From contig DATBHW010000054.1 in assembly GCA_036557285.1 (NCBI GenBank), positions 1 to 64,000 on the forward strand: a stretch of DNA of 64,000 bases, read 5' to 3'. This stretch comes from Ktedonobacterales bacterium. Lineage in GTDB: Bacteria; Chloroflexota; Ktedonobacteria; Ktedonobacterales; DATBGS01. A model generated the notes under the pieces. That model saw only the letters and a list, made by a program, of their open reading frames with translations. It was not told the origin of the DNA and searched no databases. Of the stretch, positions 3 through 51,620 are shown piece after piece. The stretch's first letter is position 1, and the number at the start of each line of letters is the position of its first letter. The translations under genes were made by a program, and so were the position numbers.

Positions 3-140
3 ATCGCGGCCAATCGGGCGTATGCCTCGTTGGAGGAAGAAGCCGAGCGAGCTGTAGCTTGGCTCGACGGCCTCACCAATGACGAGCGGTTGCGCCGCTG
101 TGGTCTGAAGTCCTCTAAATTTCAATGGCTATCTACTTAG
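3..140 (+). CDS. IS630-like transposase, C-terminal fragment (cut by window edge)
   Basis: An open frame enters from the left edge and stops at TAG 138-140, giving 45 residues. The ending, with an Ala-Trp-Leu segment, a Cys-Gly-Leu and a final Phe-Gln-Trp-Leu-Ser-Thr, resembles the C-termini of IS630-family transposases as I remember them; the DDE catalytic residues would lie outside the window. It may be the end of an intact insertion sequence or a remnant. No terminal inverted repeat could be confirmed downstream. The assignment rests on the tail only, so confidence is moderate. Confidence 0.45.
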   Translation: MAANRAYASLEEEAERAVAWLDGLTNDERLRRCGLKSSKFQWLST

Positions 141-210: not shown

Positions 211-714
211 ATGCCTCCTGATGCGAACGCTGGCGCGCCTGATGAGGAAGAGATAGGGATCGCGGGCGCTGTCCTCAAGCATCTGATCCGACATCCCGAC
301 GAGCGCGGCTTCTTTCTGGAGTTGATTCGCGCCACCGACCCATTCTTTGCTGAAGGCTTCGCGCAGCTCAGCCATTCCAAGATGTTCCCAGGGGTTGCCA
401 AAGCCTGGCATATCCATACAACTCAGATTGACTGGTGGTATGTCCCTATAGGCACGCTGAAGGTGGCGCTCCACGATTTGCGCGAGGGCAGCCCCACGCG
501 CGGCGTGACCAAAACACTCTTGCTGGGCGAGGACTATGCGCCCGTCATTCTCAAGATTCCGGCGGGCGTCGCGCATGGGTGTAAGGCCATTGGGGGTACG
601 GCGCATCTTTTCTACGTGACCTCGCGGACCTACGATCTCGCCGAAGAGGGCCGCATCCCCCACGACGACCCGGCTATTGGCTACGATTGGGTGCGCGGCG
701 CAGAAATCAAATGA
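211..714 (+). CDS. dTDP-4-dehydrorhamnose 3,5-epimerase family (RmlC-like cupin)
   Basis: The 167-residue protein matches the RmlC-type cupin fold. RmlC epimerises dTDP-4-keto-6-deoxyglucose at C3 and C5 during dTDP-L-rhamnose synthesis. Visible family features are a His pair in AWHIHT (67 and 69) where the catalytic His of RGLH normally lies, DLREGSPTRG (89-98), IPAGVAHGC (116-124) and the C-terminal DDPAIGYDW. The protein is slightly shorter than typical RmlC and the Arg-Gly before the catalytic His is replaced by Lys-Ala, so it may act on another nucleotide sugar. No other rhamnose gene is nearby. Its 3' end overlaps the 3' end of the convergent glycosyltransferase gene by 34 bases. Confidence 0.75.
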   Translation: MPPDANAGAPDEEEIGIAGAVLKHLIRHPDERGFFLELIRATDPFFAEGFAQLSHSKMFPGVAKAWHIHTTQIDWWYVPIGTLKVALHDLREGSPTRGVTKTLLLGEDYAPVILKIPAGVAHGCKAIGGTAHLFYVTSRTYDLAEEGRIPHDDPAIGYDWVRGAEIK

Positions 715-31113: not shown

Positions 31114-31578
31114 CTATCCCAGGTCATCCAGCGCCTGCTGGAAGACGGTCAGCGCGGCGCCAGGATCGCCCAGCTTCTCCATCAGCGCCAGATAGAGGCG
31201 GCGTAACTGCGCGCCCTGGGCTACCAGCAGCGTGTTGCGGGTCACGCGGCTGATGCTGCCCAGCGGCGCTTCGACAGTGCGCCGGGTTACTCCCAGTTCG
31301 GTGACGATGAGCCAATTGGTGATGTTGACTGTGGCCTTGAGCAAGCCGGTATCGCTGAGGCGGCGGCGGTGCGCGCTTTGCACTGCCAGCGGCGTTTGCT
31401 GACCGCTGAACAGCGGCGGGCGGCGCAGCCCCTTGATGAGAACACCGCGCAGCGGCTCCGGCATGTTACCAGTGAGCAGGCGCAGACCGTATTCGCGCCG
31501 CAGCGGATTGGAGAACGCGAAGCGCGCCGAGGGCGGGATGGACGGAGACGACGAAGACCGACCAGTGACCAGGGCCAT
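31114..31578 (-). CDS. small soluble protein of unknown function below a conserved structured leader
   Basis: A 154-residue protein beginning MALVTGRSSSSP. The N-terminal half is basic with Leu-Arg clusters, the middle (GLLKATVNITNWLIVTELGV) is beta-like, and the C-terminal ~50 residues form amphipathic helices (QLRRLYLALMEKLGD). I do not recognise the family. The start at 31578 has AAAGGAG nine bases upstream. It lies ~150 bases after a three-hairpin element also found upstream of the gene at 50754-51245. The two proteins share only a vague C-terminal helical pattern. Confidence 0.5.
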   Translation of the reverse strand: MALVTGRSSSSPSIPPSARFAFSNPLRREYGLRLLTGNMPEPLRGVLIKGLRRPPLFSGQQTPLAVQSAHRRRLSDTGLLKATVNITNWLIVTELGVTRRTVEAPLGSISRVTRNTLLVAQGAQLRRLYLALMEKLGDPGAALTVFQQALDDLG

Positions 31579-31670
31579 GATAGATGCTCCTTTCGACTTC
31601 TTGAGCCAACAACTCAATACGCCGAAACGGCCCCCGCCTGATGCAAACGCTGACGCGAAGCTCGCCTTCG

Positions 31671-31852
31671 GGGGAGAGCACCATCTGCTCTCCCCGTCCG
31701 ACAAGTGGCGCCCCAGCCTTTCGCAGGAAGGAGCCGCTGAGCAATCTTTCAACCGGGCACAATTTCCAGTGATAGAATGCCCCCAGCCCCATTCCTGGCC
31801 TTGCCAGGTCTGGGGTAATGACGTGGCGGTGTACAAATCACCGCCGCGTCAT
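31671..31852 (-). promoter_or_regulatory. conserved three-hairpin element, copy X
   Basis: Blocks identical to copy Y (51341-51532) are CAGGAA-N2-AGCCGCTGAG (31724-31741), TAGAAT (31773-31778) and CAGCCCCATTCCTGGC (31784-31799). Hairpins: 31818-31823/31847-31852 with 31825-31831/31839-31845; CCCCA..CCTGG/CCAGG..TGGGG (31787-31815); and GGGGAGAGCA/TGCTCTCCCC (31671-31695). In the minus reading it is a 5' leader of the 31578 gene. On the plus strand TAGAAT could be a -10 for a small RNA. The active strand is unresolved. Confidence 0.6.
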
Positions 31853-31945
31853 GCCGTTCCAGCCTTGCTCTTCCCAAGCCAACTGTTCCGAGCAAGGATA
31901 GTATACCTGCTTATCCAACCCCTGTCAAGCGGCGTAGGAAAGTGG

Positions 31946-32069
31946 GTTTCCACCAAAAAGCGGGGGCCACCTGTAGCGCCGCCTTCCAGGCGGCCAGCGT
32001 TGAGCCGCCTGGAAGGCGGCGCTACAAGTAACACACCTCGCTTGTCAACACTCCATATCTGGTGGAACC
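31946..32069. repeat. dispersed repeat, family A copy 3 (short)
   Basis: Borders are GTTTCCACCAAAAAGCGG and ATCTGGTGGAACC. The arms GTAGCGCCGCCTTCCAGGCG and their complement are joined by a very short spacer. The right end reads as the reverse complement of other left ends, so this copy is inverted. Confidence 0.8.
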
Positions 32070-50753: not shown

Positions 50754-51245
50754 TCACGCGCCCACTTCGGAGATCAGGCTGTTCAGCGCGCGGTGCAGTT
50801 CGTCTTGCGCCACCGCGCCGATGCGCTCGCGCAGGTGCGCGTAAAGCTGGCCGAGCCGCTGACATTGCAGCGCCAGCAGCTTCTGCCATTCATCGGCCCC
50901 CAGCAGGCTGGGCGGCGTCTCCAGCACCTCCAGCGCCAGTGCCGCCTCAGTGCGCAAGAACTGCCGCGTGTCAACCAGCGCGTAGCAGTGCAAGAGGTTC
51001 GCAAAGAAACGCGGTTTGCGTACATAGCGGGCCAGGTGTGGGCGCGCCTGCCAGAAAAACAGGGACTCAGGCGGTAAGCTGCGGCGCATCCGCAAGCGCC
51101 GCCCGACAGCCTCGGTCAGCAGACGGCGCACCATCCGCTGGGCGGGAACATCCAGGCCGGTAGGCGAATCGGGGAGCGCGGGCCAGGCAGCATCCAGGCG
51201 CTGCCAGGGGATGAGGGAAACGTCAGAAGCGGCGGACAGAACCAT
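50754..51245 (-). CDS. helical protein of unknown function below structured leader copy Y
   Basis: A 163-residue, mostly helical, Arg/Leu-rich protein (e.g. VRRLLTEAVGRRLRMRRSL, HLARYVRKPRFFANLLHCY). No family was recognised. The start at 51245 follows AGAGAGG. Like the gene at 31114-31578 it lies ~165 bases downstream of a conserved three-hairpin element, and both C-termini have a QxxRLxxLYxxL-type helix. That resemblance is weak. Confidence 0.55.
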   Translation of the reverse strand: MVLSAASDVSLIPWQRLDAAWPALPDSPTGLDVPAQRMVRRLLTEAVGRRLRMRRSLPPESLFFWQARPHLARYVRKPRFFANLLHCYALVDTRQFLRTEAALALEVLETPPSLLGADEWQKLLALQCQRLGQLYAHLRERIGAVAQDELHRALNSLISEVGA

Positions 51246-51340
51246 AGAAGAACCTCTCTTTCGTCTGCATGAAACGCAATGTTCAGACAGCCGAAGCGGC
51301 TGCTCCCCGGTCCTGGCAGGTCGAGGCTAAAGGGTGTGGG

Positions 51341-51532
51341 AGGGCGCGCAGCCAGCGCCCGCGCGCCGACGCGCCCTCTCCGCACATCCACAGCCGTCGA
51401 GACCTCGCCAATCTCCAGGAAACAGCCGCTGAGAGGTTCTGCCATCAAATGGTAGAATATCCCAGCCCCATTCCTGGCGATTTGCAGGATTGGGGGGAGT
51501 GGCCCGTCTGATGTTCTCGACATCACCGGGCC
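51341..51532 (-). promoter_or_regulatory. conserved three-hairpin element, copy Y
   Basis: It shares CAGGAA-N2-AGCCGCTGAG (51416-51433), TAGAAT (51453-51458) and CAGCCCCATTCCTGGC (51463-51478) with copy X. Hairpins: GGCCCG/CGGGCC plus TGATGT/ACATCA (51501-51532); CCCCA..CCTG/CAGG..TGGGG (51466-51495); AGGGCGCG/CGCGCCCT (51341-51377). The outer stems differ in sequence from copy X yet still pair. Confidence 0.6.
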
Positions 51533-51620
51533 ATACCGTCTCGATGCTGAACACAGTATAACTGCTCCTGGTTGCCGCTGTCAAGGGATAGAGCGAGCGC
51601 GAGGACTTTCTGGCTGGCTT

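Follow-up and report, generated by a model that had tools for sequence, protein, structure and literature searches.

The stretch of Ktedonobacterales DNA analyzed here (64,000 nucleotides, hereafter the window) holds, at positions 31,114 to 31,928, two genes facing each other: a message for a small unknown protein and, on the opposite strand inside the leader of this message, a predicted short two-hairpin RNA that probably binds the leader and turns the message down. The same arrangement was not matched by any RNA database searched, and was found about 36 times in this genome, as well as in front of phage antirepressor and mobile-DNA genes of other Chloroflexota and in some cyanobacteria. All these conclusions were inferred from sequence, without expression data.

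Identification of the Element and Its Copies in the Genome

A first-pass annotation of the window described three identical blocks shared by two places, called here copy X (31671-31852) and copy Y (51341-51532), with outer stems that differ in sequence but both pair. This observation was confirmed and proved to be larger than reported. The three blocks, CAGGAA-N2-AGCCGCTGAG, TAGAAT, and CAGCCCCATTCCTGGC, were present at both places, and the outer stems ATGACG/CGTCAT (copy X) and GGCCCG/CGGGCC (copy Y) pair. The distance of 146 bases to a start codon corresponded to that from 31724 to the minus-strand ATG at 31578. An alignment of the two minus strands showed that both copies have a sigma70 promoter, followed by the hairpins, and then by a Shine-Dalgarno (SD) sequence and an ATG, at 31578 and 51245, respectively. 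The features recognized in the two copies, including those described in the following sections, are:

Copy X, 31923..31928 (-): -35 box TTGACA of the mRNA promoter
Copy X, 31900..31905 (-): -10 box TATACT of the mRNA promoter, spacer 17
Copy X, 31854..31863 (-): P0 5' segment GCTGGAACGG, which can pair with 31621-31628 and with the 3' tail of the plus-strand RNA
Copy X, 31770..31778 (+): extended -10 promoter TGATAGAAT of the antisense RNA
Copy X, 31785..31862 (+): predicted antisense (countertranscript) RNA, starting at the A of AGCC, end approximate; MFE -49.9 kcal/mol for 31785-31866
Copy X, 31787..31815 (+): hairpin P2 of the antisense RNA
Copy X, 31817..31853 (+): hairpin P1 of the antisense RNA, terminator-like, with a U-run that is weak in this genome and better in relatives
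Copy X, 31737..31786 (-): stem P3 of the mRNA leader (CTGGGGG.../...CTCAG), enclosing the antisense promoter
Copy X, 31724..31738 (-): P4 5' strand AGCGGCTCCTTCCTG
Copy X, 31626..31643 (-): P4 3' strand CATCAGGCGGGGGCCGTT; P4 is terminator-like in many relatives
Copy X, 31621..31628 (-): switch segment GTTTCGGC, pairing with the P0 5' segment or with the P6 3' segment
Copy X, 31587..31597 (-): P6 3' segment GTCGAAA, running into the SD AAAGGAG
Copy X, 31114..31578 (-): downstream ORF, 154 aa, all-helical by prediction, no family above any curated cut-off
Copy Y, 51555..51584 (-): mRNA promoter, TTGACA at 51579-51584, TATACT at 51555-51560, spacer 18
Copy Y, 51450..51458 (+): extended -10 TGGTAGAAT of the antisense RNA
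Copy Y, 51464..51545 (+): predicted antisense RNA (P2 51466-51495, P1 51498-51535), end approximate
Copy Y, 51415..51430 (-): P4 5' strand
Copy Y, 51295..51316 (-): P4 3' strand region
Copy Y, 51284..51297 (-): switch segment
Copy Y, 50754..51245 (-): downstream ORF, 163 aa, with SD AAAGAGAGG at 51253-51261

A search of the same genome with one block, allowing mismatches, gave nine convincing copies. A covariance model built from these (R1) found 35 full-length copies in the 5.1-Mb genome at E<=2e-3, and two wider models (R2 and R3) found 36 or more. In 32 of the 35 copies, a minus-strand promoter scoring >=10 of 12 (TTGACA-16..18-TATACT type) was located upstream of P1, and most copies have an SD and an ORF downstream. 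Several close relatives of the copy X protein (56-66% identity), and many diverged ones, follow other copies. In this genome, most copies are single cassettes between core genes. However, a few copies (loci L041, L045, L051, and L061 in our numbering) lack an intact gene, the downstream gene of the first three being decayed or missing, and some may thus be relics. L061 (contig C34, 19383-19498) has a leader that is cut after the P4 5' strand and runs into a methyltransferase-like gene, and looks like a recombined or inserted copy. At L045 (contig C35), two overlapping matches on opposite strands, 340-464 (-) and 422-538 (+), were both scored by the model, possibly representing a head-to-head degenerate pair. 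Palindromes of the type GTAGCGCCGCC...GGCGGCGCTACA (REP-like repeats) are frequent between genes, at 31966-32033 and around 32637 in the window and at many places in the genome, often next to copies of the element.

Conserved Structure

On the 35 copies, 86% of the pair cells of P1, P2, and P3 were standard pairs, against 37-47% when the partners were slid by 1-3 columns, and 22 of 31 pairs changed on both sides. On 64 copies from two phyla, these values were 82% against 33-42%, and 29 of 31 pairs changed on both sides, including all 15 pairs of P1, which is far beyond chance. The three models were built on minus-strand alignments, so that the pair counts (on A3-A8) lean towards that structure. 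The absence of further homologues with covariation, which had been set beforehand as a refuting condition, was clearly not observed.

A further long stem, P4, pairs almost perfectly in 33 copies with compensatory changes, and 30 of these 33 copies have all seven core pairs. A hairpin of at least 8 bp followed by T was found at P4 in 19 of 37 copies of other Chloroflexota, 4 of 7 cyanobacterial copies, and only 6 of 17 copies of this genome, against 9, 5, and 10% of control windows, respectively. Two alternative pairings, P0 and P6, share one segment: P0 joins it with the sequence just 5' of P1, and P6 with the sequence running into the SD. Cognate partners paired better than shuffled ones, also when one representative per subfamily was used (P0, p=0.003/0.0006; P6, p=0.0001/0.0003). 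However, this putative switch was derived only in this genome, and P0 fails in some copies (L032, L038).

Assignment of the Hairpins to the Two Strands

On the minus strand, P1 and P2 contain many A.C and few G.U oppositions, and A.C on one strand is U.G on the other. For P1, 119 oppositions were of the plus-strand wobble type against 20 (p=2e-18), and for P2, 54 against 12 (p=2e-7), whereas for P3 the reverse was observed, with 17 against 52 (p=3e-5). These counts were made over cells of related sequences, and the p-values are thus optimistic, but P1 was more stable on the plus strand in 62 of 64 copies, and P2 was more stable on the plus strand in 53 copies and on the minus strand in 10.

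The most conserved block, ATTNTANCA, which includes TAGAAT, reads TGnTAnaaT on the plus strand. Over 64 copies, T-12, A-11, and T-7 were found in 100%, G-14 in 95%, T-15 in 87%, A-8 in 82%, and A-9 in 73%, positions -13 and -10 being free, and an invariant AGCC followed after 6 or 7 nt in 54 of 63 copies. That is an extended -10 promoter with a fixed start. On the plus strand, P1 was followed by more T than the control (3.5 against 2.1 per 10 nt), clearly so in some relatives (GTTTTCTTTCTG, GTTTTAAATG) and weakly in this genome (GCCGTTCC). P2 and P1 would thus form an RNA of ~75 nt, antisense to the ~310-nt leader that carries P3 and P4. In this genome, the U-run after P1 and that after P4 (GTTTCGG) are short, and both terminators would therefore be weak here.

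Distribution of the Element in Other Genomes

None of 60 relatives matched R1 at E<=1e-3 with strict filters, and the element thus looked lineage-specific, but the wider models showed that this was a limit of sensitivity. R2 found matches in other Chloroflexota families, and R3, built with those, matched 27 of 399 Chloroflexota genomes at E<=1e-4, among them several genomes of the same order, one of which had eight matches. A DNA pattern used on a genome collection gave 33 contigs, of which one had a weak R3 match; among 25 genomes reached through an unspecific pattern, only the four Microcoleus genomes had several matches. Six of 292 genomes of Cyanobacteria matched. Culturable members include Microcoleus vaginatus HSN003 (NZ_CP031705.1). 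The one hit in Desulfobacula lies inside a long ORF and is taken as false. Two DNA patterns gave 35 viral contigs, none with an R3 match, and a profile of the antirepressor found no viral relative. No DNA match was found in plasmids.

No Rfam family was found at gathering score in the window, and no relevant one at relaxed E-value in 25 relatives (Rfam 15). A weak full-length hit to Scr6106 on the plus strand (E=1.4) did not recur in relatives.

Genes Downstream of the Element

In the genome of the same order with eight matches, the element directly precedes Bro-N and P22_AR_N genes. In six genomes of the order, 13 of 17 P22_AR_N antirepressor genes have an R3 match just upstream on the same strand, including all 6 in this genome, although two of the matches are weak (~27 bits). 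Seven copies of the element and four of the six P22_AR_N-like genes of this genome lie on a single contig (C34, 85.9 kb). In addition, 13 of 17 P22_AR_N-type genes have a perfect palindrome with arms >=8 bp in the 330 nt before the domain, against 17% of control windows (L247, L250, L255, L258-L262, and others, 90-270 nt before the domain). Most have their own palindrome sequence, sometimes in tandem (e.g., AAGGGGGGACCATAATGGTCCCCCCTT), and these palindromes may be operators of the gene's own product.

In another family, the element lies between an excisionase-like HTH_17 gene and a transfer/replication operon, and in others near tyrosine or serine recombinases. Downstream of the cyanobacterial copies (L219-L222, L224-L229, L236) lies a family of proteins of ~70-100 aa (core like TIHTLH.LGYAEA..WSP), for which no NCBIfam or PHROG name was found. 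Relatives of the Microcoleus small protein are carried by cyanobacterial plasmids, including plasmids of Nostocales where, in two cases, they sit next to a tyrosine recombinase, but these plasmids showed no R3 match.

In this genome, the copies are mostly followed by small unknown proteins of 146-188 aa, helical by prediction and very divergent. No Pfam, NCBIfam, or PHROG family was found above cut-off for the small protein, and the copy X protein, predicted to be all-helical (pLDDT 79.6), had no fold match in the PDB.

Divergence of Hairpin P1 between Paralogous Copies

Some recently duplicated copies are nearly identical except in P1, in which the pairing is kept. L057 and L059 share 73% identity in P1 and 97-100% elsewhere. 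L047 and L049 share 66% in P1 against 97-100% in P2, P3-P4, and the downstream 80 nt, although their upstream 60 nt also differ (72%), and L048 and L053 share 71% in P1 against 93-100% in those parts. However, other close pairs (L051/L055, L027/L028) do not show this excess. Selection for antisense RNAs that do not cross-react would give such a pattern, but this remains an inference.

Interpretation

We propose, with a probability of about 0.7, that each copy is a convergent sense/antisense regulatory module. In this view, both promoters fire, and the countertranscript made of P2 and P1, which is complementary to the 5' half of the leader, pairs with it. This should keep the leader from forming P0, so that the leader folds into P4 and, in this genome, into P6 next to the SD, and the output of the gene falls. 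Ancestrally, the module would sit in front of antirepressor-type and other mobile-element genes (P22_AR_N, Bro-N, recombinases, transfer operons); in this genome, it would have been multiplied to about 36 copies that drifted apart in P1, so that each antisense RNA addresses its own leader. The two promoters, the paired hairpins, their strand polarity, the distribution of the element, and its association with genes are shown from the sequences, whereas transcription, duplex formation, repression, termination induced by the antisense RNA, the P0/P6 switch, and orthogonality are inferred. That the element is real, conserved, and regulatory is almost certain, and that P2 and P1 form a plus-strand RNA with its own promoter is very likely. 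Repression of the minus-strand gene in cis is probable, but the idea that termination at P4 is the main step in this genome is only tentative, control through P6 being as likely.

The interpretation given by the first-pass annotation was supported in part. A structured RNA with covariation is strongly supported, a leader holds on the minus strand, and the alternative of a TAGAAT-driven small RNA on the plus strand is also supported for P2 and P1. In contrast, a riboswitch has no specific support, since the block that looked like a conserved loop is explained as the antisense promoter. The description of three hairpins was incomplete (P1, P2, P3, and P4, plus the alternative P0/P6), and the promoters on both strands, P4, about 34 more copies, and the assignment of P1 and P2 to the plus strand had not been seen.

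Other explanations were considered. A cis-acting leader on the minus strand that senses a ligand or a protein (riboswitch-like or an autogenous attenuator), with ATTNTANCA as a recognition loop and P4/P6 as the expression platform, would agree with the assignment of P3 and P4 to the minus strand, with the terminator-like P4 of many relatives, and with an RNA core that is better conserved than the downstream proteins. This reading was held until the wobble-pair polarity was counted, and is now considered unlikely: P1 and P2 carry the wobble pairs of the plus strand and fold better on it, the most conserved block has the profile and spacing of an extended -10 promoter on the other strand, including its free positions, rather than those of a ligand-binding core on the mRNA strand, and P1 is hypervariable between some near-identical paralogues, unlike an aptamer. 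It is also unlikely that the copies are type I toxin-antitoxin modules kept by addiction, with the antisense RNA as antitoxin and the small protein as toxin. The many dispersed cassettes of promoter, leader, and small gene among core genes, each with an antisense RNA, and some decayed copies would fit this idea, but the products are not short hydrophobic peptides, and relatives of the element are associated with antirepressors, transfer operons, and recombinases. Finally, the high copy number in one genome and the lineage-wide association with mobile elements could point to a DNA-level element, namely a recombination or cassette insertion site whose inverted repeats mimic RNA stems. This is very unlikely, as inverted repeats in DNA would not favor G.U over A.C, the wobble-type polarity differs between helices in a strand-consistent way, promoters lie at fixed positions on both strands, and the element keeps a fixed orientation upstream of genes.

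A more far-reaching reading, somewhat less likely than not, is that an undescribed family of phage/plasmid-type antisense-RNA attenuators, shared by Chloroflexota and Cyanobacteria, was taken up by one Chloroflexota lineage and multiplied to about 36 genomic copies that diversify their recognition hairpin P1 to stay mutually orthogonal, forming a natural library of addressable antisense switches for a new family of small proteins. Antisense control of this kind is ordinary, whereas the family, the copy number, and the setting are new. The element would be a new regulatory RNA family that ties antisense RNA control to antirepressors and other mobile-element genes in two phyla where such systems are little known, and P22 sar would no longer look like a lone case. 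The genome offers many paralogous sense/antisense pairs in one cell, some of whose near-identical members differ mostly in the recognition hairpin, so that how antisense systems acquire specificity becomes testable by comparison. Orthogonal antisense attenuators are also wanted as building parts.

Comparison with Known Systems

Tn916 is an integrative element whose transcription is controlled by termination and antitermination (PMC11658703), but its genes and phylum are different, and no antisense RNA of this kind is mentioned in the part of the abstract consulted.

In phage P22, a small antisense RNA, sar, transcribed against the leader of the antirepressor gene ant, whose product has a P22_AR_N domain, represses antirepressor synthesis (PMC2629481, PMC5415839). 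The sar RNA is a two-hairpin RNA of ~69 nt. Similarly, P22_AR_N genes follow the element described here, with an antisense promoter inside the leader, although the target of the two window copies is an unknown protein and not an antirepressor. No relation was found through Rfam. In addition, the sense leader here has an attenuator-like stem P4 and the alternative P0/P6, the module also precedes Bro-N, recombinase, and unknown genes, and it exists in ~36 copies in one genome. In the window, it stands among core genes and not in a recognizable phage.

Plasmid copy-control countertranscript RNAs of the pT181 and pIP501 type act by antisense-induced transcription attenuation, RNAIII of pIP501 inducing attenuation in the repR leader (PMC4981023; PMC5415839 for pT181). 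They share with the element convergent sense and antisense promoters and a hairpin countertranscript complementary to the sense leader, and termination occurs in the sense leader of these plasmids. The targets differ, as the genes downstream of the element are not replication initiators, no similarity to Rfam models was found, and P4, terminator-like in many relatives, would be a weak terminator in this genome, where translation control by P6 is as likely. Antisense control of an antirepressor is known from P22 sar/ant and antisense-induced attenuation from pT181 and pIP501, and the anatomy of the element described here combines both.
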